Shown piece after piece: positions 8,390 to 27,736 of a stretch of 64,000 bases of DNA (positions are counted from its first letter, which is position 1; every line of letters starts with the position of its first letter). The stretch lies in contig NZ_CP012109.1 of assembly GCF_000280925.3 (NCBI RefSeq), positions 2,500,501 through 2,564,500 on the forward strand. The letters are read 5' to 3'. This stretch comes from Myxococcus hansupus (GTDB taxonomy: Bacteria; Myxococcota; Myxococcia; Myxococcales; Myxococcaceae). A model generated the notes under the pieces. That model searched no databases and was not told where the DNA came from. It worked only from the letters and a program-made list of their open reading frames with translations. Position numbers and translations under genes: made by a program.

Positions 8390-9451
8390 ATGAGGCTGGT
8401 GCTGGATGCCATGGGCGGCGATCACGCGCCGGCCGCGCCGGTGGAGGGGGCGGTGCTCTTCGCGCGCGCCCACCCCGGCTGCCAGGTGCTCCTGGTGGGG
8501 GACGAGGCGAAGGTGGCGCCGCTGCTGGGCAAGGGCCGGCCTCCCTCCAATCTGGAGGTCCACCATGCCTCCGAGGTCGTGGAGATGGACGAGCACGCCT
8601 CCACGGCCTTCCGCCGCAAGCGCGACTCCTCCCTCCGGGTCGGCTTCGAGCTGGTGCGCGACGGCCGGGCGGACGCGCTGGTGTCGGCGGGCAACTCCGG
8701 GGCCGTCATGGCCGGGGGTCTGCTGACGCTGGGGCGGTTGCCGGGGGTGGAGCGGCCCGCCATCGCCGCGCTCTTCCCCGCCTTGAAAGGTGGGGGCCGC
8801 TGCCTGCTGCTGGACGCGGGGGCCAACGTGGACTGCCGCCCCTCGCACCTGGCCCAGTTCGCCGTCATGGGGGAGGCCTACGTGCGCGCCCGCATGGGCG
8901 TGGCCCGGCCCCGGGTGGCGGTGCTCTCCAATGGTGAGGAGTCCTCCAAGGGCACGCCGCTCACCCGGGAGGCCAGTGACCTGCTGCGCCGCTCGGACCT
9001 GGACTTCGTGGGCTACGTGGAGGGCAAGGACCTCTTCTCCGGCGACGTGCAGGTCGTGGTGACGGACGGCTTCACCGGAAATGTCGTCTTGAAGACGTCC
9101 GAGGGCGTGGGCATGGGCGTCATTGGCATGTTGCGTCAGGCGATTGAGCGGCGCGGCGGGCTGGCCGAGAAGGTGGGGGCGATGCTGCTCCAGCCAGCGC
9201 TGGCGGGCCTGCGCCGGGTGGTGGACTACGCTGAATATGGAGGGGCGCCGCTCCTCGGTATCCAGGGGGTGGGCATCGTCGCGCATGGACGTTCCACGCC
9301 CCGGGCCCTGTTCAACGCGCTGGGGGCCGCGCTGGCCATGGCGGAGGGCGGCGTCCAGGCGGAGTTGACGCGTTGCATCGGGCGGGCAGCGGGCTGGCTG
9401 CCGTCCGTGCCCAAGGGAAAAAGGGCGACAGAGGCGGGCGTTTCCGATTAG
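8390..9451 (+). CDS. plsX: phosphate acyltransferase PlsX
   Basis: Makes acyl-phosphate from acyl-ACP for phospholipid synthesis; peripheral inner-membrane enzyme. 353 residues starting MRLVLDAMGGDHAP, the family N terminus, with SAGNSGAVMAGG and DGFTGNVVLKTSEG further on. ATG 8390 is preferred over GTG 8384 because AAGGAG lies 8 nt upstream and the protein then begins like other PlsX. It leads the fabD-fabG-acpP-fabF cluster. The usual fabH neighbour between plsX and fabD is absent. Confidence 0.96.
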   Translation: MRLVLDAMGGDHAPAAPVEGAVLFARAHPGCQVLLVGDEAKVAPLLGKGRPPSNLEVHHASEVVEMDEHASTAFRRKRDSSLRVGFELVRDGRADALVSAGNSGAVMAGGLLTLGRLPGVERPAIAALFPALKGGGRCLLLDAGANVDCRPSHLAQFAVMGEAYVRARMGVARPRVAVLSNGEESSKGTPLTREASDLLRRSDLDFVGYVEGKDLFSGDVQVVVTDGFTGNVVLKTSEGVGMGVIGMLRQAIERRGGLAEKVGAMLLQPALAGLRRVVDYAEYGGAPLLGIQGVGIVAHGRSTPRALFNALGAALAMAEGGVQAELTRCIGRAAGWLPSVPKGKRATEAGVSD

Positions 9452-9638
9452 AGCCAGCGCCCGAAGCGTGCAGGCCGCCTCGCGGTGGGGGCAGGGTTCC
9501 CCCGCGAAATGAGTTGGCGCCACCTGCCAGATGCGGCAACAGGGCGTCCATCTGGCGGCCCAGGCCGCTGAAAGTGGGTCCACCGCGCCGGGAGGTCGGG
9601 GCGTGGGGACTGACGAAATTCGAGGAGGCAGAGTCCGC

Positions 9639-10580
9639 ATGTCGAAGGTCGCGTTCGTGTTCCCCGGGCAAGGCAGCCAGGCCGTGGGGATGGGCAAGGA
9701 CCTGTATGAGAAGTTCCCCGAGGCCCGCGCCGTGTTCGACGCGGTGGATGACGCCCTGGGGGAGAAGCTCTCCACCCTCTGCTTCGAGGGTCCGGACGAG
9801 GCGCTGAAGCTCACGGCCAACACGCAGCCGGCCATCCTCACCGTGTCGCTGGCGGTGCACGCCGTGTTCGCCAGGCGCGGACCGGCGCCGTCCTTCGTCG
9901 CGGGCCACTCGCTGGGCGAGTACTCGGCGCTGGTGGCGGCGGGTGCCATGAGCCTGGCCGATGCGGTCCGGGCGGTGCGCGCGCGCGGCACCTTCATGCA
10001 GGAGGCGGTGCCCGCGGGCGTGGGCGCCATGGCCGCGGTGCTGGGCCTGGTTCCGGAGAAGGTCAAGGCGGCCTGCGACGCGGCGGCCGAGGGGCAGGTG
10101 GTGTCCCCCGCGAACTACAACTCGCCGGAGCAGACCGTGATTGCCGGCGACGCCGCGGCCGTGGAGCGCGCCGGGGTGAAGTGCAAGGAGGCGGGGGCCA
10201 AGCGCGTGATGCCGCTGCCCGTGTCCGCTCCCTTCCACTGCGCGCTGATGGCGCCGGTGCAGCCGCGGCTGGCGGAGGTGCTGGGCCGCATCCAGGTGTC
10301 CGCGCCCTCCGTGCCGGTGGTGACCAACGTGGAGGCCCGCCCCAACGCGGACGCCTCGCGCGTGGTGCCGCTGCTGCTGGAGCAGGTGAGCTCGCCGGTC
10401 CGCTGGATTGAGTGCGTGGAGGCGCTGAAGGCCGAGGGCGTCACCCGCATCATCGAGCTGGGGCCGGGCAAGGTGTTGGTGGGCTTGGTCAAGCGCATCA
10501 CCAAGGACATCGAGCTGTTCAACGTCGAGGACTCCGCGAGCCTGGACAAGGCGCTCGCGGCACTGGGGGTGGCACCATGA
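9639..10580 (+). CDS. fabD: malonyl-CoA:ACP transacylase
   Basis: Transfers malonyl from CoA to ACP for fatty-acid elongation. 313 residues. The N terminus FVFPGQGSQAVGMG, the nucleophile S91 in GHSLGEY and catalytic H200 in APFHCALM are all present. The ATG at 9639 is preceded by GAGGAGG. Its stop overlaps fabG by ATGA. A 187-bp gap with a GGGGG/CCCCC hairpin (9487-9503) separates it from plsX, where fabH is often found. Confidence 0.96.
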   Translation: MSKVAFVFPGQGSQAVGMGKDLYEKFPEARAVFDAVDDALGEKLSTLCFEGPDEALKLTANTQPAILTVSLAVHAVFARRGPAPSFVAGHSLGEYSALVAAGAMSLADAVRAVRARGTFMQEAVPAGVGAMAAVLGLVPEKVKAACDAAAEGQVVSPANYNSPEQTVIAGDAAAVERAGVKCKEAGAKRVMPLPVSAPFHCALMAPVQPRLAEVLGRIQVSAPSVPVVTNVEARPNADASRVVPLLLEQVSSPVRWIECVEALKAEGVTRIIELGPGKVLVGLVKRITKDIELFNVEDSASLDKALAALGVAP

Positions 10581-11326
10581 GCGGCTTCAAGGACAAGGTC
10601 GTGCTCGTGACGGGTGGCTCGCGCGGCATCGGCCGGGCGTGCGCGGTGGCCTTCGCCAAGGCGGGGGCCTCCACCGTGGTCATCAGTTATGCGGGCAACG
10701 AGGCGGCCGCGCAGGAGACGGTGAAGCTCCTGGAGGCCGAGGGCGCCAAGGCGGAGGCCCTCCGCTTCGACGTGTCCGACAGCGCCGCGTGCGCCAGCGC
10801 CGTGGACGGCATCGTGAAGTCGCACGGCCGCCTGGACGTGCTCGTCAACAACGCGGGCATCGCCGTGGACGGCCTGGTGATGCGCGTGAAGGACGAGGAC
10901 TGGGACAAGCAGCTCGACACCAACCTCAAGGGCGCCTTCTCGCTCATCCGCGCCGTCAGCCGCCCCATGATGAAGCAGCGCGGCGGCGCCATCATCAACA
11001 TCACCTCCGTGGTGGGGGAGATGGGCAACGGCGGACAGGCGGCCTACTCGGCGTCCAAGGCGGGGCTCATTGGCCTGACGAAGTCAGTGGCGCGCGAGCT
11101 TTCCAGCCGGAACATCCGCGTGAATGCCGTGTCCCCCGGATTCATCGGAACGGACATGACTCATCAGCTCAATGACGAGTTGCGCCAGAAGATGCTGGAG
11201 GGAATCCCCCTGGGTCGGCTGGGGAATCCGGAGGAGGTCGCCGGTGCCGTCGTGTTCCTGGCGGGGGACGCCGCGTCCTACATCACCGGTGAGGTCCTGA
11301 AGGTCAATGGCGGCATGTACATGTAA
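10577..11326 (+). CDS. fabG: 3-oxoacyl-ACP reductase
   Basis: NADPH-dependent reduction of 3-oxoacyl-ACP, second step of fatty-acid elongation. 249-residue short-chain dehydrogenase with the TGGSRGIG nucleotide-binding motif, NNAG, and the Ser-Tyr-Lys active site in [14 protein letters not shown] and AYSASKAG. It ends LKVNGGMYM, typical of FabG. Translationally coupled to fabD. Position and sequence together make a different SDR specificity unlikely. Confidence 0.95.
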
Positions 11327-17733: not shown

Positions 17734-18156
17734 ATGGGCGCGCGGAGAACGGGACGTGAGCGTGCGCTGCAGGCGCTCTACCAGTTGGAGATGTCCAACG
17801 CGACGACGGCCGAGGCGCTGGAGTCGGCCTGGTCGGCGGCGGACGAAGGCCCCAAGCGGGATCCGGACGCGGTGAAGTTCGCCCGGGAGCTGGCGGAGGG
17901 CGTGAGCTCGCACCGGGACGAAATCGACCAGCTCATCGAGCGGCACAGCCACAACTGGCGCCTGGACCGCATGTCGCGCATCGACCGCAACGTGCTGCGC
18001 CTGGGCATCTTCGAGCTCAAGTACCGGCCGGACATCCCTCGCAAGGTGACCATCAACGAGGCGGTGGAGCTGGGGAAGAACTTCGGGACGGAGGAGTCGA
18101 GCGCCTTCGTCAACGGCCTGCTGGACCGCGTTGCTTCGGCCCTGAACAAGTCGTGA
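17734..18156 (+). CDS. nusB: transcription antitermination factor NusB
   Basis: RNA-binding all-helical protein that works with NusE (S10) in rRNA antitermination. 140 residues starting GARRTGRERALQALYQLEM, with NWRLDRMSRIDRNVLRLGIFEL and PRKVTINEAVELGKNFG, the family signatures. The ribH-nusB pairing is nearly universal. Confidence 0.96.
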   Translation: MGARRTGRERALQALYQLEMSNATTAEALESAWSAADEGPKRDPDAVKFARELAEGVSSHRDEIDQLIERHSHNWRLDRMSRIDRNVLRLGIFELKYRPDIPRKVTINEAVELGKNFGTEESSAFVNGLLDRVASALNKS

Positions 18157-18185: not shown

Positions 18186-18677
18186 GTGAGCCAGACGACG
18201 ACGCACGACATCGGATTGGAAGGGCTGGACACGCTCGGCGGGGTGGACGCGCTCTGCCTCTTCATCGCCGAGGATGACCGGCCCCTGCCGTCCTCGGCGG
18301 GGTTCGTCGACTGGCGGCTGTGCGGCACGCTCTCGCGGGTGCTCAAGGCGGGCTTCTTCACCGGCGCGAAGGACGACTGGCTCCTCCTCCCCTCGGACGG
18401 GAAGCTGGAGGTGCCTCGCGTCTTCGTGGTGGGCCTGGGCGCCCGTCAGAAGCTGGACGCCAGCGCGCTGAACGAGGCCCTGGCCGGCGCCGGCCGCGTG
18501 CTGAGCAAGGCCAAGGTGGACTCGGTGGCGCTGGAGGTCCCCAGCGGCGGGCAGTTGGAGGACGCCGCGCGGGCGGACGCTTTCCAGAAGGGCTTCCTGC
18601 CTGCGTTCAAGGGCGCACGGGTGGCGGTCCTGGCGGACAAGGGACTCGTCAAGTCGCTGCCTGCCCGAAAGGGCTGA
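18186..18677 (+). CDS. stand-alone leucyl-aminopeptidase (M17) N-terminal-like domain
   Basis: 163 residues resembling the non-catalytic N-terminal macro-like domain of M17 aminopeptidases: a CLFIAEDDRPLP strand, a hydrophobic LRG-type helix region and PRVFVVGLGARQKLDASAL. The catalytic zinc-binding C-terminal domain is completely missing, and nothing downstream encodes it. Such orphan domains may bind nucleotides or ADP-ribose-like ligands, but that is inference. It starts 29 nt after nusB and lies just before the chemosensory genes, so it could belong to either unit. Confidence 0.65.
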   Translation: MSQTTTHDIGLEGLDTLGGVDALCLFIAEDDRPLPSSAGFVDWRLCGTLSRVLKAGFFTGAKDDWLLLPSDGKLEVPRVFVVGLGARQKLDASALNEALAGAGRVLSKAKVDSVALEVPSGGQLEDAARADAFQKGFLPAFKGARVAVLADKGLVKSLPARKG

Positions 18678-18732
18678 CGCTCGGCGGGCTGGCGGGCCTT
18701 CTGCTAGCATGCCTCGCCCGGGGCGAGCGCAC

Positions 18733-19107
18733 ATGCGTGTCAAGGTGTTGATTGTCGAGGACTCGAAAGCATCGCGCGAGTACATCGCGGCGATGGTCGA
18801 GGCCGTGGAGGGTGTCGAGGTGGTGGTGACTTCGAGCGGCTTCGAAGCGCTGAAGCTGCTGCCACGTCACCGCTTCGAGCTCATCATCACCGACATCAAC
18901 ATGCCCGACATCAACGGGTTGGAGCTCATCAACTTCGTCAAAAAGAACCCCAACTACCGCGACGTGCCGCTCTTCGTCATCACCACCGAGGGACGCGAGC
19001 AGGACCGCGACCGTGGCCTCGCGCTGGGCGCCGCGGAGTACCTGGTGAAGCCCTTCGTCCCTGGGAGTCTGGAAGCGCTGCTGCGGCGCTACCTGAAGCT
19101 GCCGTGA
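18733..19107 (+). CDS. CheY-like response regulator
   Basis: 124-residue single receiver domain with E9/D10, phospho-accepting D54 in IITDINMPD, a TTEGRE switch loop and the conserved Lys in YLVKPF. No output domain, so it signals through protein contacts. The ATG at 18733 starts the domain directly; ATG 18709 would add eight residues. Its end overlaps cheA (GTGA), making it co-translated with the kinase; it may be the kinase's main phosphate acceptor or a phosphate sink. Confidence 0.9.
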   Translation: MRVKVLIVEDSKASREYIAAMVEAVEGVEVVVTSSGFEALKLLPRHRFELIITDINMPDINGLELINFVKKNPNYRDVPLFVITTEGREQDRDRGLALGAAEYLVKPFVPGSLEALLRRYLKLP

Positions 19108-21821
19108 ATCCTGGAAGCAAGGCACTGGCCGAGTTCGTGGCGGAGGCGACCGAGATTCTCGACGCCCTCGCCAGGGACCTGCTCGTGTTGGACGAGCGCC
19201 GCGGCCAGGAGGCCGACCCGGACCTGGTCAACGGCATCTTCCGCGCGGCGCACTCGCTCAAGGGCCTGTCGGGCCTGTTCGGCCAGGAGCGCATCTCCCG
19301 GCTGGCGCATGGCACGGAGGACCTGCTCGACCGTCTCCGGCTGGGGAAGCTGTTGCTGGACGGCGCGGTGTTGGACGCGCTGATCGAAGCCCTGGACGCG
19401 TTTCAGGCGCTGCTGGGCGAGGCGGCGCGAGGCACCGAGACGGAGGGGCTCTCCGGCCGCGTGGACGTGATGGCCGCGCGGCTGGCGTCGCTGGGCGCTC
19501 CGACGGAGGTGTCCGAGGACGACCCTCTGGACCGGCTGGAGTTGGAGGCGCAGGTTCGCTCCGTCTTCACCGAGTACGAGGAGCACCGGCTCCGGGAGAA
19601 CGTGCGGCGCGGTGTGGCGCTGTGGCGTGTGCGCGCCGCGTTCGATTTGTCGGACTTCGACAAGGGGTTGGCGGAGCTCAATGCCCGCCTCAAGCCGCTG
19701 GGCGAGGTCATCAGCACGCTGCCGTCGGCTCAGCCCGGTGGGGCGCACGGCATCGCGTTCGACCTGATTTTTGGTGGGCAGGTGGACAGCGCGGCGCTGG
19801 CGGCGGGGTTGGAGGGCACTCCCGCGGAGCTGGCTCCGTTGGTGGTGCGTCCGGCCGTGGACGCCGTGACGCCCGCCCTGGTCCGTGCCGCGCAGCCCGC
19901 CGTGACGGTTCGGCAGGGCGCTTTGAAATCTCCCGGCGCCGGTTCGGAGAAGGCATCTCCCTCCGAGAAAGGCAGAGCAGCGCGGTCATCCGCGCCAGCG
20001 CCCGGGTCGACGGAGCATTCCGGTGCGGTGGCGCAGGGGCGTGTGGCGTCTTCCGACGCGGCGTCGTTCGCGCATTCGACGCCCACGGGCGAGACGGCTG
20101 CGGTGTCTCCCGGCGCTGCGAAGCCGGGTCGTTCGGGCCGGACAGGGACGGGCGCCGGTTCGGCGCTGGGTGCTCCGGAGTCCGGGAGCGACGCACGGGG
20201 CGAGGGCAACGCGACGGGGGCGCCAGACACGGCGTCCACTGCGACGACGAAGCGCAACGGTGGCCGGAAGCGGGCGTCCCGCGCGGCCTCCGCGACGCAT
20301 CCCGAAGAGCAACAGCCCTTGTTGCCACACCTGTCCGAGGACGCGGCGCAGGGGGGCGCTTCCGAAGGCGTGGCCCACCTGGACCCATCGGACTCCGGCG
20401 CGCCAGCGTCGCCCGAGGTCTTCGTTTCGCACGAGCCCGTTGCCGCCCCAGAAGTGACGCCCGCGCCGCTCGTGGCCTATCTCCAGGGCGCGGCGAAGGC
20501 GGCGCCCAAGGGGCTCTCGGTCGCCCCAGCTCCGTCGGCCCCGGGAGCGGGTTCCGCACCTGCTTCCACCGGGAGTGGCCCCGCTGCACAGACGGCGGAC
20601 ACATCGCTCCGCTCCCTCACGCAGACCGTCCGCGTGGACATCGGCCGGCTGGATGGCCTCATCAACATGGTGGGCGAGCTGTTGCTCATCAAGGCCAACC
20701 TCCAGCGGCTCGCGGAGTCGGCGAGGCAGGACGGCGCGGTGGCGCTGTCCAAGCTGTTCGGTCAGGAACTGGCGCGCGAGACTCGCGGCCTGGAGCGCAA
20801 GCTGGAAGCCCTTCAGGAAGGGCTCCTGGAAGCGCGGATGGTCCCCGTCGGCCAGGTGTTCGACAAGCTGGCCCGGCTGGTGCGCCGCATCACCCGCGAG
20901 GCGGGGAAGGAAATCGAGTTCGTCATCAGCGGTGGCGAGGTGGAGCTGGACAAGCTCATCGTCGAGGAACTCAGCGACCCGCTGATGCACCTCATCCGGA
21001 ACGCCATCGACCACGGCGTCGAGTCGCCCGACGCGCGGCTGGCCGCGGGCAAGTCCCGCCGCGCCGTGGTGTCGCTGCGCGCCGAGCAGAAGGGCAACCA
21101 CGTCGTCATCGAAGTGAGTGACGACGGCGCGGGCATCGACGAGGTGCGCGTGCGCGAGGTGGCCATCACCCGCGGCCTCATCACCTTCGCGCAGGCCCAG
21201 GAGATGTCGCGGCGCGAACTGCTCAACCTCATTTTCCAGCCCGGCTTCTCCACCGCGCGCAGCGTCTCCGAGCTGTCCGGCCGGGGCGTGGGCCTGGACG
21301 TGGTGAAGAACAACCTGGGCAACCTGTCCGGCATCATCGACGTGTGGAGCGAGCGGGGGAAGGGGACGTCCTTCCACCTCACGTTGCCCGTGACGCTGGC
21401 CATCATCCGCGCGTTGCTGGTGGGCGTCAGTGGCCGCACGTACGCGGTGCCGCTCAACAGCGTGCTGGAAATCATCTCCGTCCAGCCTCGGGACATCCGC
21501 ACCGTGGAGCGCCGAGAGGTGCTGGACGTGCGCGGCCAGACGCTGCCCTTCGTGCGGCTGGCGCGCATGTTCGCCCTGCCGGACCGCCCGGTCAGCCGCT
21601 ACTTCGTGGTGGTGGTGGGGCTGGCCCAGGAGCGTCTGGGCATCGCGGTGGATGAGCTGCATGGCCAGCAGGACATCGTCACCAAGCCCTTGGGGGGACG
21701 GCTTCAGTCCATCCGGGGAATCTCGGGAGCCACGGACCTGGGCAACCGGCGCACGGTGTTGGTGCTGGACGTGGCGGCGCTCCTGGAAGAGGGGATGTCC
21801 CCGGAGCGGCGTCGCGCCTGA
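19104..21821 (+). CDS. cheA: CheA-type histidine kinase
   Basis: 905-residue kinase of a chemosensory array. HPt domain (1-110) with H50 in RAAHSLKGLSGLFG; a P2-like response-regulator-docking domain (~150-240); an unusually long low-complexity Ala/Ser/Pro/Gly linker (~240-505); the P3 dimerisation helices from ~509 (TVRVDIGRLDGLINMVGELL); the ATPase domain with LIRNAIDHGVESP and GRGVGLDVVKNNL; and a CheW-like P5 domain (~757-900). GTG start overlaps cheY. CheA is usually 600-750 residues; the linker explains the excess. Confidence 0.95.
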   Translation: MNPGSKALAEFVAEATEILDALARDLLVLDERRGQEADPDLVNGIFRAAHSLKGLSGLFGQERISRLAHGTEDLLDRLRLGKLLLDGAVLDALIEALDAFQALLGEAARGTETEGLSGRVDVMAARLASLGAPTEVSEDDPLDRLELEAQVRSVFTEYEEHRLRENVRRGVALWRVRAAFDLSDFDKGLAELNARLKPLGEVISTLPSAQPGGAHGIAFDLIFGGQVDSAALAAGLEGTPAELAPLVVRPAVDAVTPALVRAAQPAVTVRQGALKSPGAGSEKASPSEKGRAARSSAPAPGSTEHSGAVAQGRVASSDAASFAHSTPTGETAAVSPGAAKPGRSGRTGTGAGSALGAPESGSDARGEGNATGAPDTASTATTKRNGGRKRASRAASATHPEEQQPLLPHLSEDAAQGGASEGVAHLDPSDSGAPASPEVFVSHEPVAAPEVTPAPLVAYLQGAAKAAPKGLSVAPAPSAPGAGSAPASTGSGPAAQTADTSLRSLTQTVRVDIGRLDGLINMVGELLLIKANLQRLAESARQDGAVALSKLFGQELARETRGLERKLEALQEGLLEARMVPVGQVFDKLARLVRRITREAGKEIEFVISGGEVELDKLIVEELSDPLMHLIRNAIDHGVESPDARLAAGKSRRAVVSLRAEQKGNHVVIEVSDDGAGIDEVRVREVAITRGLITFAQAQEMSRRELLNLIFQPGFSTARSVSELSGRGVGLDVVKNNLGNLSGIIDVWSERGKGTSFHLTLPVTLAIIRALLVGVSGRTYAVPLNSVLEIISVQPRDIRTVERREVLDVRGQTLPFVRLARMFALPDRPVSRYFVVVVGLAQERLGIAVDELHGQQDIVTKPLGGRLQSIRGISGATDLGNRRTVLVLDVAALLEEGMSPERRRA

Positions 21822-21864
21822 CCCTCGCTGCGGACGGGCGCGCCGGCTGCTATCCTCCGTCCTC

Positions 21865-22431
21865 GTGTCCCGGTTCTCGGAGCTGCTCGACGACTTCTTC
21901 TACCGTCCGGACGAGGACGTCACCGGGCTTCACGACTTCGCGGCGGGCAGCGACGGCGTACGGACGGTCGTCCCCGAGGAGGTCCCCGAGGAGTACCTGG
22001 CGTTCCGGTTGGAGTCGGAGTGCTACGCGGTGCCCATCCGGGGCGTGCGTGAAATCTCCAAGGTTCCTCCGTTGACGGAGATTCCCCGGGCCGAGCCCCA
22101 ATTGCTGGGCGTGATGAACCTGCGCGGCGAGCTGCTGCCCGTGTATGACATCAAGGTTCGCCTGCGCCTGGCGGAGCGGCCTCCCTTGGTGGCGGGCCCC
22201 GACGCGCCGGCGCCGCCTCGGAGCGCGCGCATCCTGGTGCTGCGAACGGAGGCGGGCCCCGCGGGCGTTTGGGTGGACGGGGTCGTGGGCGTGGTGAAGC
22301 TCAGGCCCTCCATGGTGGAGGCTCCGCCACCGGGAATGCGGACCGGTGACAAGGATTGCGTGGTGGGCATGGGCCGGCGTGGCCCCACGCTCTACATCCT
22401 CCTGGACGCGGAACAGGCGCTCGCACCATGA
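21865..22431 (+). CDS. cheW: CheW-like coupling protein, first copy
   Basis: 188 residues: a ~45-residue N-terminal extension (SELLDDFFYRPDEDVTGLHD) and then a CheW fold with YLAFRLESECYAVPIRGVREI and LLGVMNLRGELLPVYDIKVRL, the binding surface for CheA P5 and receptors. GTG start at 21865, 43 nt after cheA. Coupled to the second CheW by ATGA. The acidic extension is unusual for CheW and may make a specific contact. Confidence 0.9.
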   Translation: MSRFSELLDDFFYRPDEDVTGLHDFAAGSDGVRTVVPEEVPEEYLAFRLESECYAVPIRGVREISKVPPLTEIPRAEPQLLGVMNLRGELLPVYDIKVRLRLAERPPLVAGPDAPAPPRSARILVLRTEAGPAGVWVDGVVGVVKLRPSMVEAPPPGMRTGDKDCVVGMGRRGPTLYILLDAEQALAP

Positions 22432-22970
22432 AGGACCCCGTCAATCTGCTCCCAAGCCGTCCCCACGCCGTCGCCGACGAAGCGGCGTCGGCGGCGGATG
22501 TCGTGGTGCAGCTCTGTGCCTTCTACATTGGCGCGGCGGAGTACGTGCTGGACATCATGCGGGTGGAGGAAATCCTCCCGCTCCAGCGCGTCACGCCCAT
22601 TCCCCATGCCCCGGCCTTCGTGGAAGGCGTGCTCCACTTGCGAGGCGTCATCCTCCCGGTGGTGGACCTGCGTTGCAGGCTCCTGGGCGCACCGGGGCCG
22701 GAGACGCCGAAGACACGGCTGCTGGTGTGTAAGCTGGGCGCGCGGCGCGTGGCGGTGAAGGTGGACCGCGTGGCGGAGGTGCTGCGGGTGCGCAAGGGCG
22801 ACATCAAGCCCGCGCCCGCCCTGGTGGTGGCGGGGCACTCGCCGTTTGTCGTGGGGGTGTGCGGTCCACCGGACAGGCTCCGGTTGTTATTGGACCTCAA
22901 GGCCCTGCTGCGCGTGGAGCTGGAGCGCGAGTCTTTGAAAGCACCGGAGTCGATACGCAAGGGGGACTGA
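22428..22970 (+). CDS. cheW: CheW-like coupling protein, second copy
   Basis: 180 residues with a CheW fold from ~28 (VVVQLCAFYIGAAEYVLDIMRVEEIL) and FVEGVLHLRGVILPVVDLRCRL. It differs from the first copy throughout, so this is not a recent duplication. Two CheW proteins in one cluster suggest they bridge the kinase to different partners. The end lies 1 nt before the next gene. Confidence 0.9.
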   Translation: MKDPVNLLPSRPHAVADEAASAADVVVQLCAFYIGAAEYVLDIMRVEEILPLQRVTPIPHAPAFVEGVLHLRGVILPVVDLRCRLLGAPGPETPKTRLLVCKLGARRVAVKVDRVAEVLRVRKGDIKPAPALVVAGHSPFVVGVCGPPDRLRLLLDLKALLRVELERESLKAPESIRKGD

Positions 22971-22971
22971 G

Positions 22972-23349
22972 GTGGGCGCACAACACCTGGAGCAGCACCG
23001 TCGAATCCTCGGCATCCTCTTCATCGTCATCAACGCGGTGACGTTGCTGCTCTCCGCGGGCATCCTGGTGTTCTTCGGGGCAGTGGGCGGTCTGGTTCCC
23101 GACGTCGAACCCGAGGGGCGGGCCGCGCTGCTCATCATCGGACTGGTGGCGGGAGGGTGTCTGGCTTTGTTGGGCCTGCCGGGCGTCATCACGGGCCTTG
23201 GCCTGGTGAGGCGCAAGTCCTGGTCACGAACGGTGGCGCTCGTGCTGGGAGTCCTCGCGCTGCCCAACGTCCCGTTGGGTACGGCCCTGGGCGCGTATGC
23301 CCTCTGGTTCTATCTCCAACCCGGCTCCGACCAGGTCTTCGACCGATGA
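22972..23349 (+). CDS. small membrane protein in the chemosensory cluster
   Basis: 125 residues with three hydrophobic segments (~12-38, 50-75, 88-115) and no recognisable soluble or receptor domain; there is no methyl-accepting helical hairpin, so it is not an MCP. GTG start directly after cheW and an ATGA overlap with the HEAT-repeat gene bind it into the operon. Function unknown; as the only membrane protein of the cluster, it may anchor or gate the signalling complex (inference). Confidence 0.75.
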   Translation: MGAQHLEQHRRILGILFIVINAVTLLLSAGILVFFGAVGGLVPDVEPEGRAALLIIGLVAGGCLALLGLPGVITGLGLVRRKSWSRTVALVLGVLALPNVPLGTALGAYALWFYLQPGSDQVFDR

Positions 23350-25400
23350 GTCCCTCCTCCGAAGTCCCCGTCGCGGAAGAGGTGCGCTACCTGGCGCTCC
23401 AGGCGTTGGACCCCTGCGCCGCGGGCGTGCTGGAGATTCTCGTGGTCGGCCTGCATGACGAGAGCTGGCGCGTGCGTCACGTCGCGGCGGAGGCCCTCAA
23501 GCGGATGCCCGCGTCGACCGAACTCGCCGCGAGGCTCATCGCCGTCCTGGGCGAGCGGGGGGAGACGGGGGCCCGCAACGCGGCGGCGGAGGCGCTCGCC
23601 GGACTCGGGGGCATCGCGTTGGCACCGCTGGTGGACCTGCTGTCCCACCCGGACCCCGACCAACGCAAGTTCGCGGCGGACATCCTGGGACAGATAGGGC
23701 ATCGCGGGGCGGAGGCGCCTCTCGTGCAGGCGCTGGCGGACCGGGACCTCAATGTCCGGGTTTCCGCGGCGGAGGCCCTGGGCCGTGTCGGGGGGGAGCA
23801 GGCGATGGGGGCGCTGGAGGCTCTGTTGGCGGAGCCCGAGCCGTTGCTCCGCCTGTCCGCGCTGGAGGGCCTCACGCTGCTCGAGCGCGCGGTGCCGCTG
23901 CGCGTGGTGACGGCGCTGCTGGAGGACGTCCCCCTTCAGCGCAGCGCGTACAGGATGTTGGGGCTCATCCCCGACGCCGAGGCCACGCAGCGCATCTGCC
24001 AGGGGCTGGGGTCGGGGCTGCGCTCGGTGCGTGAGGCCGCGCTGTCCGCGCTGGGCACCCAGGCGTTGCGCGCGGAGGGCGAGCGGCGGGCCGAATTCGA
24101 AGCGGTGGTGCGCGAGTCGCTGCATGCGTCGCCCGGCCTGCTGTCCAGGTTGGAGGAGGCCCTGGCCGCCGAGGACGTCATGGTGCGCGAGTCGCTGCAT
24201 GCGTCGCCCGGCCTGCTGTCCAGGTTGGAGGAGGCCCTGGCCGCTGAGGACGTCATGGTGCGCGCGGGCGCGCTGGTGGTGGTGGCGTCGCTGGGCGATG
24301 CGTCACTGGCCATCCCCGTGGCGGAGTGCGCGCGCGAGCCTCGGCTCCTGCGCGAGGTGTTGCACACGCTGGACACGTTGGGCCCGGCGGCGGGGCACGC
24401 GTTGCTGGTGCGCATGCCGGACCTGTCCCTGCCTGCCCGGGCCGCGGTGGCCGAGGCGCTGGTGCACTTGGTGGACGCGTCGGCGGTGGCGGCCCTGTGC
24501 TCCTTGCTGGAGTGGATGGAGGGAGACCTCCGCGCCGTGGTCGTGCGCGCCCTGGGGCGCACGGGTTCGGCGGACGCGGTGCCGCCGCTGGTTGAGTTGT
24601 TGGAGGAACCTTCGCTGGCGGGGGCTGCGACGCGTTCGTTGATGGGGCTCGCGGAGTCCCATCAGATGGACGTCGTGGTGGCGTTGCAGGACGCGGTGGT
24701 GCGGAAGCGTTCGCCCGCGGCGGTGGCGGCCATGGCGCGAATCGGGAGTGCGTGGGCCGTGCCGCTGCTGAAGCGGCTGTCGCGCGACACGGAGCCCGAG
24801 TGGCGCGCGGCGGCGGTGATGGCGGCCTGCGAGCTGGAAGGCGACGCGGGCCGGGAGTGGGTCTACGCGGCGCTCGCGGATGAGTCCGCCCAGGTTCGCA
24901 TCGCGGGGGCCCGTGCCCTGGCGCGGCTGGGCGGCGCGGAGGCGGGGGCCCTGCTGTCGCCCGCGCTGCGAGACGAGGACCTCTCCGTCCGGGTGGCCGC
25001 GGTCCAGGCAGTGGGAGACTGTGGGGCCTTGGACCGCGTGCCGGACCTGGTGGCGCTGACGCGGCACACCGATGGAGCGCTGGCCGTGACCGCGGTGCGG
25101 GCCCTGGCGCGGCTGGGGGCGGCGGAGCCCGATGTCCTGCGCGCGGCGGCCAATCATGCCGACGTGGAGGTCGTGAAGGCGGCGCTGGCCGTGGGCGCGG
25201 AGACGGCGGCCGGCGTGGCGATGGCGCTCGCGTTGCTGCACCACCCACGCTGGGACGTGCGCACCGCCGCCGCGCGAGTCCTGGGCGATTCAGCGGGTCC
25301 GGAATCCCTGCCCGCCGCGCGTGAGGCCCTGGACGCGGAGTCGGACGCCCTGGCGCTGCAAGCCCTCTCGGAGGCCGTGGAGCGCCTGGTCCGGCGCTGA
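23346..25400 (+). CDS. HEAT-repeat (PBS-lyase-like) protein of the chemosensory cluster
   Basis: 684-residue alpha-solenoid of ~30-residue HEAT repeats with the recurring pattern D..W.VR..AAEALG...., e.g. DESWRVRHVAAEAL, DRDLNVRVSAAEALGRVG and DEDLSVRVAAVQAVGDCG. Such solenoids are protein-binding scaffolds; no catalytic residues are seen. Residues ~255-304 contain a near-perfect duplication of 25 residues (separate entry). Overlaps the membrane-protein gene by ATGA and precedes cheR by 9 nt. HEAT proteins also occur in the Che7 cluster of Myxococcus xanthus, but this cluster lacks the desaturase found there. Confidence 0.88.
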   Translation: MSPSSEVPVAEEVRYLALQALDPCAAGVLEILVVGLHDESWRVRHVAAEALKRMPASTELAARLIAVLGERGETGARNAAAEALAGLGGIALAPLVDLLSHPDPDQRKFAADILGQIGHRGAEAPLVQALADRDLNVRVSAAEALGRVGGEQAMGALEALLAEPEPLLRLSALEGLTLLERAVPLRVVTALLEDVPLQRSAYRMLGLIPDAEATQRICQGLGSGLRSVREAALSALGTQALRAEGERRAEFEAVVRESLHASPGLLSRLEEALAAEDVMVRESLHASPGLLSRLEEALAAEDVMVRAGALVVVASLGDASLAIPVAECAREPRLLREVLHTLDTLGPAAGHALLVRMPDLSLPARAAVAEALVHLVDASAVAALCSLLEWMEGDLRAVVVRALGRTGSADAVPPLVELLEEPSLAGAATRSLMGLAESHQMDVVVALQDAVVRKRSPAAVAAMARIGSAWAVPLLKRLSRDTEPEWRAAAVMAACELEGDAGREWVYAALADESAQVRIAGARALARLGGAEAGALLSPALRDEDLSVRVAAVQAVGDCGALDRVPDLVALTRHTDGALAVTAVRALARLGAAEPDVLRAAANHADVEVVKAALAVGAETAAGVAMALALLHHPRWDVRTAAARVLGDSAGPESLPAAREALDAESDALALQALSEAVERLVRR
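24108..24257 (+). repeat. 75-bp tandem direct duplication inside the HEAT-repeat gene
   Basis: Copy one at 24108-24182 and copy two at 24183-24257 are identical except for one silent change (GCC to GCT near the end). Each encodes 25 residues starting VRESLHASPGLL and ending AAEDVM. The near identity shows a very recent in-frame slippage or unequal-crossover event. The length is shorter than a HEAT repeat, so it does not simply add one module. Confidence 0.95.
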
Positions 25401-25409
25401 GGGGCTCTC

Positions 25410-26281
25410 ATGGCACGCTTCGACGACGGGCGCCCGGAGATGTCGGTGGAGGAGTTTCGGCTCCTCCGGGACCACGTGTATTCGCACTGCGGCATCCTCA
25501 TGCATGAGGACATGAAGTTCGTGATGGAGCGCCGGCTGTGGCCCCGGCTGGAGCTGCTCGGCCTGCCGGACTACGGCGCCTATCACCGGTACCTGCGCTA
25601 CGACGCCAACCGCTCGGCCGAACTGGAGGCGGCGGTCGAGTCCCTCACCACGCACGAGACGTACTTCTTCCGCGAGCCCATGCAGCTCCAGTCCTTCACG
25701 GACGAGCTGCTCCCCGCGCTGCAGAAGCGCAATGCCCGGCTGAAGCGGCTCCGCGTGTGGTCGGCGGGCTGCTCTTCCGGAGAAGAGGCCTACACGCTGG
25801 CCATGATTCTCAAGGACAGCGGCCGTTTCTCGGACTGGGACGTGGAGGTCCACGGCACGGACATCTCCCGGCGCGTGCTCGCCCTGGCGCGGCGGGCGGA
25901 GTACGGGCCGTCCGCGCTGCGGGCCACGTCACGTGAGCTGCAAGAGCGTCACTTCGCCCAACTGGCGCCCAACCGGTTCGGCGTGAGGGACGACGTGAGG
26001 GCCTGGGTGTCCTTTGGCCATCTCAACCTGCTGGATGAGGCGGGCAGCCAGTTGGTGCCGCGCATGGACGTGGTGTTCTGCCGCAACGTGCTCATCTATT
26101 TCGACCTGGCCGCGCGTCAGAAGTTCCTGCGCATCGTCCGGGACAGGCTGGTGCCGGGGGGGTACCTCCTGCTGGGACACTCCGAGAACCTGCTGAGCCT
26201 GGGCGCGGACTTCGAGTTCGTTCACCTGCGGGGGACCTGGTGTACCGGAGGCCCGAGCTGGACGACGGAGCCCTCAGGTGA
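25410..26281 (+). CDS. cheR: CheR methyltransferase, frameshifted near its 3' end in this sequence
   Basis: SAM-dependent methylation of receptor glutamates. Helical N-terminal domain (1-75, with LRDHVYSHCGI), then the methyltransferase domain with THETYFFRE, the SAM loop RVWSAGCSSGEEAYTLAM and FCRNVLIYFD. After FEFVHLRG the frame breaks in the G-run 26230-26234. One added G gives DLVYRRPELDDGALR and a TGA at 26279-26281 that overlaps the cheB GTG, the coupling seen across this cluster; total 290 residues. Unshifted, it would run on to 26318 inside cheB. Confidence 0.92.
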
Positions 26282-27315
26282 GCACCCAGGATGTCATCAC
26301 CGTATTGGTCATCGATGATTCGGCGCACAACCGGCGCACCCTCGCCACGATGCTGGAGTCGGAGCAGGACGTGCGAGTGGTGGACCGCGCGGCGGACGGT
26401 GAGGAGGGGCTGAAGAAGGTCGTCGAGCTGAAGCCCGACGTGGTGACGCTGGACCTGGAGATGCCGAAGCTGGGGGGCTACACGTTCCTCCGCTTGCTGA
26501 TGCGCACGGCGCCCACGCCCGTCATCGTCATCTCCAGCTATTCGCACCGCTCGGACGTCTTCAAGGCGCTGGACCTGGGGGCTTTCGACTTCATCGCGAA
26601 GCCGCAGCACGCCACGTTCGACGCGATGGAGGCGCTCCGGCGCGAGCTGTTGGAGAAGGTGCGGGCGGCGCGGCACATGCGGCCCGGCCACCGGCACGCG
26701 GCGCCGGGCGCCCGGGCGATGGCGGTCGCGGGTGAGCCGCCGTTGGTGATCGCCGTGGGGGCGTCCACGGGAGGGCCCCCGGCGGTGCAGCGCGTGCTGG
26801 AGGGCCTGGCGGCGGAGCCCACCCCGTGCGTGTTGGTGTGTCAGCACATGCCGCCATTGTTCACCCGGGCCTTCGCGGACCGGTTGGACCGCATCGGGCC
26901 CTTCTCGGTGTCGGAGGCCCGCGACGGGGACCTGGTGCAGCCCGGGCACGTGTACATCGCCCCAGGAGGCCGGCACCTCGTGGTGTCGGAGCGGGGCTCG
27001 AAGCTGGAGCTGCACACGCCGCCGCCCACGCCCGCGGACAAGTACGCGCCCAGCGTGGACCGGCTCTTCTCCAGCGTGGCGGAGGTGTTGGGGCCCAAGT
27101 CCCTGGGCGTGGTGCTGACGGGGATGGGGGCGGATGGCGCGGAGGGCACGCGTCACATCCACCGCGCGGGAGGCGAGGTCTGGGCGCAGTCCGAGGAGAC
27201 CTCGGTGGTGTTCGGCATGCCCGGTGAGGCCATCGCGACCGGGGCGGTGAAGCGGGTGATTCCACTGGGAGACATCGGGGCGGCGCTCGCGGCCCAGGCG
27301 CGGCGGCGGCGCTGA
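26278..27315 (+). CDS. cheB: CheB methylesterase
   Basis: Receptor demethylase/deamidase controlled by phosphorylation. 345 residues: receiver domain with D13/D14 and phospho-acceptor D59 in TLDLEMPKLGG, then the esterase domain with triad S163 (GASTGG), H190 (CQHMPP) and D286 (GMGADGAEG). GTG start overlaps the corrected cheR stop. Together with CheR it implies an adapting system, though no receptor is encoded here. Confidence 0.95.
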   Translation: MSTQDVITVLVIDDSAHNRRTLATMLESEQDVRVVDRAADGEEGLKKVVELKPDVVTLDLEMPKLGGYTFLRLLMRTAPTPVIVISSYSHRSDVFKALDLGAFDFIAKPQHATFDAMEALRRELLEKVRAARHMRPGHRHAAPGARAMAVAGEPPLVIAVGASTGGPPAVQRVLEGLAAEPTPCVLVCQHMPPLFTRAFADRLDRIGPFSVSEARDGDLVQPGHVYIAPGGRHLVVSERGSKLELHTPPPTPADKYAPSVDRLFSSVAEVLGPKSLGVVLTGMGADGAEGTRHIHRAGGEVWAQSEETSVVFGMPGEAIATGAVKRVIPLGDIGAALAAQARRRR

Positions 27316-27355
27316 ATCTCCTGCTTCGGCCCACGGGTGCTAACGTCCGCGCCCC

Positions 27356-27736
27356 ATGACGCAGCAGATTCGAGCCCTGGTGGTGGATGACTCGCAGGCG
27401 ATGCGGCGAAGCATCATGTACGCGCTGCAACGGCTCTCCGGTGTGGTGTGCACCGAGGCCCAGGACGGCGCGGAGGGCTTGAAGAAGCTGACGCAGGCTC
27501 GGTTCGACCTGGTGCTCACCGACATCAACATGCCGTTGATGGACGGACTCAAGCTCATCAGCCACATCCGGCAGGCGTCCGAGCACCGCGACGTCCCCAT
27601 CATCGTCGTCACCACGGAGGGCGCGGCGGCGGACCGGGAGCGCGCGATGAAGCTGGGCGCGAGCGCGTACCTGGTGAAACCCGTGCAGGCGAAGGTCGTG
27701 CTGGATACCGTTCGGGACCTGCTGAAGCTGGATTGA
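27356..27736 (+). CDS. cheY: CheY-like response regulator, distal copy
   Basis: 126-residue receiver with D11/D12, phospho-acceptor D56 in LTDINMPLMDGL, the TTEGAA switch loop and YLVKPV. It resembles the proximal CheY but is clearly diverged. Being last in the cluster, after cheB, it may be the output regulator with the proximal copy acting as sink, or the reverse; sequence alone cannot tell. Confidence 0.9.
   Translation: MTQQIRALVVDDSQAMRRSIMYALQRLSGVVCTEAQDGAEGLKKLTQARFDLVLTDINMPLMDGLKLISHIRQASEHRDVPIIVVTTEGAAADRERAMKLGASAYLVKPVQAKVVLDTVRDLLKLD

Follow-up and report, generated by a model that had tools for sequence, protein, structure and literature searches.

We analyzed a 64,000-nucleotide stretch of Myxococcus hansupus DNA (NZ_CP012109.1, positions 2,500,501 to 2,564,500; hereafter the window), which carries a chemosensory (che) gene cluster at 18733–27736. 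The genes run in one direction in the order cheY, cheA, cheW, cheW, a membrane protein gene, a HEAT-repeat protein gene, cheR, cheB, and cheY, without a gene for a methyl-accepting chemotaxis protein (MCP). By sequence, the cluster is the myxobacterial Che8 chemosensory core and not a new system, and its receptor is probably McpJ, an orphan MCP encoded elsewhere in the genome, whose presence matched that of Che8 in every genome compared. The explanation that we consider likely as a whole combines the Che8 core with McpJ as its unlinked dedicated receptor and with the HEAT protein (HEAT8) as a CheY docking protein.

The genome containing the window (9,490,432 bases in one contig) gave 23 MCP-domain matches, corresponding to about 22 MCP genes. 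Two of these matches (L022 and L023, G000:C1 about 7134312–7134781) lie in different frames and overlap, as if one MCP gene were frame-shifted in the signalling domain. In the same search, no MCP was found in the window cluster, the nearest match being about 0.49 Mb away. For comparison, we surveyed 40 genomes of the order of the window, taken as Myxococcales and at least 90% complete, including its own. Che8 clusters were searched with CheB8 rather than with the HEAT protein to avoid bias. This search yielded 18 Che8-type clusters, and two were added via CheR8; loci L064 and L065 were other che clusters. No MCP was present in any of these 20 Che8 stretches (9–19 kb each), and a weak MCP match in L063 (25 bits) was rejected as a cyclase-like protein. 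The first-pass annotation, made from the letters of the window, had likewise noted that the cluster lacks an MCP and had asked whether relatives hold a dedicated one just outside it. A conserved MCP in that position was rejected; among the stretches examined, G020 alone has a nearby MCP, about 6 kb upstream of its nusB. As the cluster contains no MCP, the receptor must be encoded elsewhere, and the co-occurrence of the orphan McpJ supports the proposal, also made in that annotation, that the cluster borrows receptors from elsewhere.

McpJ (L001, G000:C1 about 1,142,700–1,144,800) is a membrane receptor whose periplasmic part is poorly conserved; it has one HAMP domain, and its signalling hairpin is unusually long. 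On its length and domain layout only, it was equated with MXAN_5907 of M. xanthus, which is described as a protein of 723 aa with a HAMP domain and two transmembrane segments (PMC3945109); the other Mcp and Dif names used here were assigned likewise. The presence of Che8 was judged by CheR8 at E ≤ 1e-75 with all first-look candidates scored, and G022, G025, and G035, whose best CheR matches reached 6e-50 to 1e-46, were classed as lacking it. In the CheB8 search, the best 52 candidates were scored for most genomes, and the Che8 CheB proteins of G020 and G005 escaped detection. McpJ was searched in 39 genomes with a threshold of E ≤ 1e-197. McpJ and CheR8 were found in the identical 20 of the 39 genomes, and neither was found in the identical 19, with no more than 29 top first-look candidates scored for McpJ in each genome. 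The search for a co-occurring orphan MCP that the first-pass annotation had suggested thus returned a receptor present in 20 of 20 Che8-positive genomes and found in 0 of 19 Che8-negative ones. The Fisher value of this match, 1.5e-11, overstates it, the genomes being related. The two genes also agreed within families containing both kinds of genomes (with and without, respectively: f1, 10 and 1; f3, 1 and 1; f5, 7 and 5; f9, 1 and 1) and within genus g16. G005 and G020, the two genomes missed by the CheB8 search, hold McpJ and complete Che8 clusters.

A second survey with PF00015, on which the absence of McpJ partly rests, scored nearly all candidates, and the McpJ orthologs lay there at E ≤ 2.7e-40; just two matches from Che8-negative genomes (G026 and G013) came close to this strength. 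From its matches, which extend to about E 9e-35, 16 loci were picked to count a DifA-like receptor as a control; this receptor was present in at least 12 of the 19 Che8-negative genomes, a lower bound. The DifA-like gene of the own genome adjoins cheW, a receiver gene, and cheA of another system. Several weaker matches to McpJ were rejected. Those in G029 (5e-57) and the second one in G027 (1e-50) were Mcp7-like; the PF00015 match in the Che8-negative G026 (8e-40) had L002 as its nearest own receptor. The PF00015 match in the Che8-negative G013 (2.5e-44) was nearest to L001, but with 27.5% identity over 516 aa and 160 bits, versus 610–836 bits for seven McpJ orthologs.

Further, the receptors of the own genome were compared with those of seven other Che8-positive genomes. 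In a receptor tree of 82 of 107 rows, L001 had exactly one close relative in each of the seven genomes. The other 25 rows, including the own McpB (L012), were omitted because the tip pattern was unmatched in them, and they were covered by reciprocal best hits. For the 22 own receptors, reciprocal best hits were obtained in all seven genomes for L001 and the DifA-like L003, in six for L016, in four for L002 and L005, in three for L017, in two for the McpB-like L012, and in one for the Mcp7-like L004. McpB (2/7) and Mcp7 (1/7) were accordingly rejected as the Che8 receptor. The surroundings of McpJ were compared in 11 genomes: a gene that we take to encode a penicillin-binding protein lay within a few genes in 9, and a presumed TatC-like gene in 10. 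This synteny supports the orthology of McpJ and points to no function by itself. In L183, the gene near McpJ (8719–10794), like its relatives, presumably encodes a penicillin-binding protein 1A-like protein.

The same distribution bears on the possibility that Che8 draws on a general pool of ordinary orphan MCPs, with McpJ merely co-retained. The own genome is rich enough in MCP genes for such a pool, and a receptor module shared by Che4, Che5, and Che6 is described by Moine et al. (PMC3945109). Against it, G009 retains Che8 with just 4 MCPs, McpJ among them, as it is among the 6 MCPs of G001, and G007, G022, G025, and G035 have 12–15 MCPs and neither Che8 nor McpJ. Altogether, 16 of the 19 Che8-negative genomes have MCPs, up to 15, and three have none. 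In addition, none of six MCPs in the two-hybrid assays reported in that paper bound CheW8a or CheW8b, and McpJ was not among the six. We therefore regard a general pool as unlikely. If McpJ is the Che8 receptor, the failure of the six MCPs in the 2014 assays to bind CheW8 would be explained.

The length of McpJ sets it apart from the other receptors. From the HAMP motif to the tip of the hairpin, McpJ has 220 residues versus 136 in the 8 own receptors in which the motif was found; from the tip to the C-terminus, it has 236 versus 151–168, most often 152, in 18 other own receptors. The exceptions for the latter arm were the Mcp7-like L004 (440), L017 (609), and the broken L022/L023. Relative to the commonest values of 136 and 152, both arms of the McpJ hairpin are longer by the same whole number of heptads, 84 residues or 12 heptads each. 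These lengths were constant in 21 genomes, with arms of 216 (counted from query position 240) and 236 residues, and 237 once, in G020. McpJ therefore falls into an extra-long receptor class, for which we assume the name 64H. The MCP classes listed by Tran (2008, PMC2577667) reach only 44H. Arrays are believed not to combine receptors of different lengths (PMC3945109, PMC2577667). As its length is unlike that of ordinary receptors, McpJ should not mix with their arrays and should need its own CheW and CheA. A comparable pairing is the Esn system of G. sulfurreducens, in which the cheA and cheW products bind a distant receptor in two-hybrid assays (EsnA, MCP; EsnB, CheW; EsnC, CheA; PMC5585712). 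EsnA is assigned to class 40H and carries a GAF domain, whereas McpJ is longer and gave no GAF match.

Besides the relatedness of the genomes and the limited depth of the McpJ search, several points weigh against McpJ as the Che8 receptor. In three Che8-negative genomes there is no MCP at all, and the absence of McpJ from them says nothing. The G013 receptor (L206, G013:C26:46200–50200) has a tip-to-C-terminus arm of 213 residues, so that Che8 is not a prerequisite for a long receptor. The comparison of presence profiles was confined to receptors and CheR8, and further gene families may match as well. In the account of Moine et al. (PMC3945109), an mcpJ mutant had no defect, McpJ is classed as 40H, which disagrees with the arm lengths measured here, and McpB and Mcp7 are named beside McpJ as candidates for Che7 and Che8. 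These authors also linked McpJ to Mcp7, and it follows from their 2014 proposal that McpJ might belong to Che7 together with Mcp7, Che8 having another receptor or none. The two receptors are alike in subpolar localization and were grouped phylogenetically in that paper. The reciprocal best hit of Mcp7, however, is missing in 6 of the 7 other Che8-positive genomes having McpJ, and G029 has an Mcp7/HEAT Che7-type locus, with neither a McpJ ortholog nor Che8 found in this genome. An assignment of McpJ to Che7 is thus very unlikely, and McpJ as the receptor of Che8 remains the reading that we favor.

The identity of the cluster was established by comparison with M. xanthus. The cluster is collinear with Che8 of this species (MXAN_4759–4751), in which the gene set and order are the same and the cluster likewise has no MCP. 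The M. xanthus lengths are reported as 124 aa for CheY8b, 862 for CheA8, 188 for CheW8b, 174 for CheW8a, 290 for CheR8, 345 for CheB8, and 126 for CheY8a (PMC3945109). Those of the window proteins correspond, apart from CheA (905 aa), CheW8a (180 aa), and CheR (302 aa). In M. xanthus AM003, the locus has identical genes in identical order, and its che and HEAT proteins are 76–98% identical to those of the window; the differences are the membrane protein, which is 70% identical, and a 75-bp duplication in the HEAT gene of the window.

The order cheY-cheA-cheW-cheW-...-cheR-cheB-cheY with orthologous proteins, the lack of an MCP gene, and a HEAT gene directly before cheR place the window cluster in the Che8/beta group. 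An MCP-less beta group of che clusters in delta-proteobacteria is described by Tran (2008, PMC2577667), in which M. xanthus and Anaeromyxobacter are named; its clusters, such as cluster 5 of Geobacter, contain cheA, cheW, cheB, and cheR and no mcp, as in the window. The conservation of che8 in Anaeromyxobacter and G. sulfurreducens is also reported (PMC2330069), the Che8 of Corallococcus coralloides is described as having no associated MCP (PMC6194562), and the M. xanthus MCP table assigns none to che8 (PMC3945109). As Che8 without an MCP is already in print, the cluster is not the uncharacterised system for which the first-pass annotation had taken it. What is new here is the matching occurrence of McpJ and Che8, and a McpJ–Che8 link may have been published earlier outside the literature searched. 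In the descriptions of the MCP-less Che8/beta group that we examined (2008, 2014, 2018), the driving receptor is not shown. With a single named candidate whose profile matches that of Che8 and whose length stands out, the Che8 receptor question becomes experimentally addressable.

HEAT8 is a core component of Che8. Its gene stands before cheR in all 20 Che8 clusters, two of which (L058 and L059) are cut by contig ends within it, with a piece of 94 residues (22 bits) left in L059. A loss of HEAT from most homologous clusters, which the first-pass annotation had considered, has thus not taken place. In the window, the HEAT gene (23346–25400; PF13646, E 9.8e-54) encodes the 684 residues first reported, and 22 close relatives align over 648–663 residues. 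The length of 684 residues results from a 75-bp tandem duplication at 24108–24257, whose two copies differ at one base and which adds 25 residues. Of 31 aligned HEAT sequences, that of the window alone has the duplication, the 30 orthologs being without it, and this private extension may be recent or an assembly matter. The predicted structure of HEAT8 is a helical solenoid with a predicted local distance difference test (pLDDT) score of 89.3; only its first residues and the duplication (segment 262–286) are modelled with low confidence. The best-conserved segments are mostly N-terminal (residues 35–49, 74–88, 101–115, and 132–146), with one near the C-terminus (633–647). A fold search with the model returned generic HEAT/karyopherin-like solenoids only.

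A clue to the role of HEAT8 came from Che7. The own Che7-type locus (L209) has the order cheY-cheA-cheW-mcp7-HEAT-cheR-cheB-desaturase (HEAT and desaturase by Pfam), in which the HEAT gene occupies the same slot before cheR and its product scores 140 bits against the HEAT8 profile. The order cheY-cheA-cheW-...-HEAT-cheR-cheB is shared with Che8; unlike Che8, the Che7 cluster includes an MCP gene of its own and is followed by a gene for a fatty-acid desaturase. A review describes Cpc7 of M. xanthus as a HEAT protein interacting with CheY7 (PMC11514114). HEAT8, encoded next to cheR as expected for an output protein of the Cpc7 type, is by analogy most likely a CheY-docking output adaptor, although we consider this role only about as probable as not. 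Together with Cpc7, it would be the second HEAT protein partnering a chemosensory system. Three observations weigh against this role. The 140 bits between HEAT8 and the Che7 HEAT protein may partly be generic repeat similarity, and a one-sequence HEAT8 search of the own genome (E ≤ 1e-10) found HEAT8 itself only. Moreover, the four readable clusters of family f5 (L060, L061, L181, and L182) retain HEAT, but no cheY8b was found in them, indicating that HEAT does not need that CheY. It is also conceivable, if rather improbable, that Che8 serves as the private core of an array made of the ultralong McpJ only and that HEAT8 is a structural part of this array, bracing the long stalks or spacing the baseplate, and is not only a CheY-bound output. 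In Geobacter, the HEAT-like gene KN400_2162 is listed among the genes mutated in long-term anode strains (PMC13194489).

The small membrane protein (22972–23349; 125 aa) has three hydrophobic stretches by hydropathy and three to four helices in an AlphaFold2 model of pLDDT 79.6. Pfam gave no family above the cut-off, and a fold search with the model gave no match at E ≤ 0.001. Among the Che8 clusters, its gene was present in 4 (in two with only 32–36% identity), absent from 14, and unreadable in 2. In g2, g3, g6, f2, and f9, the end of cheW8a overlaps HEAT directly with no gene between. In a set of 13 loci found with the HEAT query, the membrane gene was present in 8, absent from 4 loci of metagenome-assembled genomes, and unreadable in L027; L026 of this set is probably G032 again. 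Missing from 14 of the 18 readable clusters, the membrane gene is a late, lineage-specific insertion outside the conserved Che8 module.

These results bear on the view of the first-pass annotation that the HEAT and membrane proteins form a novel module, of which the HEAT half is conserved and the membrane half is not. As an input module, the pair would replace the receptor; in favor of this, both genes are embedded in the operon, and HEAT accompanies every Che8 cluster seen. The sparse distribution of the membrane gene argues against it. Further, Che7 holds HEAT in the same slot together with its own MCP, which shows that HEAT is not a receptor substitute, and CheR8 and CheB8 would normally need a methyl-accepting receptor as substrate. 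We rejected both proteins as receptor substitutes and consider an input module of this kind extremely unlikely.

In the scheme that we infer, which extends to physical pairing, the role of HEAT8, the direction of signalling, and the phenotype, McpJ, which differs in length from the ordinary receptors, would for that reason form a separate array with CheW8a, CheW8b, and CheA8. CheR8 would methylate McpJ and CheB8 demethylate it. CheA8 would phosphorylate CheY8a/CheY8b and one or more unlinked single-domain regulators, among them MXAN_4468 of M. xanthus; involvement of CheA8 and CheA7 in the phosphorylation of this orphan regulator, which acts on groEL transcription, is reported (PMC9040617). 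HEAT8 would most likely correspond to Cpc7 of the sister system Che7 and be a soluble protein to which a CheY-type regulator docks, and the membrane protein would be a dispensable later addition.

All che genes announced by the first-pass annotation (CheA, two CheW, CheR, CheB, and two CheY) were identified by Pfam, and all lie on the + strand. The first is cheY8b (18733–19107; PF00072; alternative ATG at 18709), whose 124 aa equal the length of MXAN_4759. It is followed by cheA8 (19104–21821), with Hpt, H-kinase_dim, HATPase_c, and CheW domains and intact motifs. The cheW8b gene (21865–22431; PF01584) begins with a GTG 43 nt past the cheA stop and yields 188 aa, the length of MXAN_4757. Downstream of it are cheW8a (22428–22970; PF01584) and, beyond the membrane and HEAT genes, cheR8 (25410–26318; PF01739, E 1.4e-53), cheB8 with a receiver and a methylesterase domain (26278–27315; PF01339, E 2.3e-63), and cheY8a (27356–27736; PF00072, E 3.6e-29). 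The motifs for phosphorylation and catalysis known in these families were present in CheA, CheB, CheR, and both CheY proteins. In the NCBIfam scan, the window proteins received generic or below-cut-off names, except CheB (PRK00742.1 above the cut-off).

The mostly coupled operon described at first holds for cheY/cheA and cheW8b/cheW8a (4-nt overlaps, the latter from the ATG at 22428) and for cheR/cheB (41 nt), but not for cheA and cheW8b with their 43-nt distance. Likewise, of the overlaps claimed for the membrane and HEAT genes with their neighbors, the 4-nt overlap between the two was found, and gaps of 1 nt (cheW8a stop to membrane gene start) and 9 nt (HEAT end to cheR) stand on either side.

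Upstream of the cluster lies a gene that we take to be nusB (17734–18156, +), a conserved neighbor of the cluster that 16 of the 20 stretches share; it was not found in L056, and L058, L059, and L062 are cut stretches. Between nusB and cheY8b is a gene (18186–18677, +) for a protein with only M17_N, the N-terminal domain of cytosol aminopeptidases (PF02789, E 1.7e-16). A homolog occupies the equivalent place in the same 16 stretches as nusB, and the gene may be an unrecognised member of the operon. Finally, the record BNCN01000006.1 (L024) is probably mislabeled: under the name Comamonas sp. KCTC 72670, it contains a Che8 locus of myxobacterial type, whose nusB and cheY8b are 98.6% and 100% identical to those of the window.

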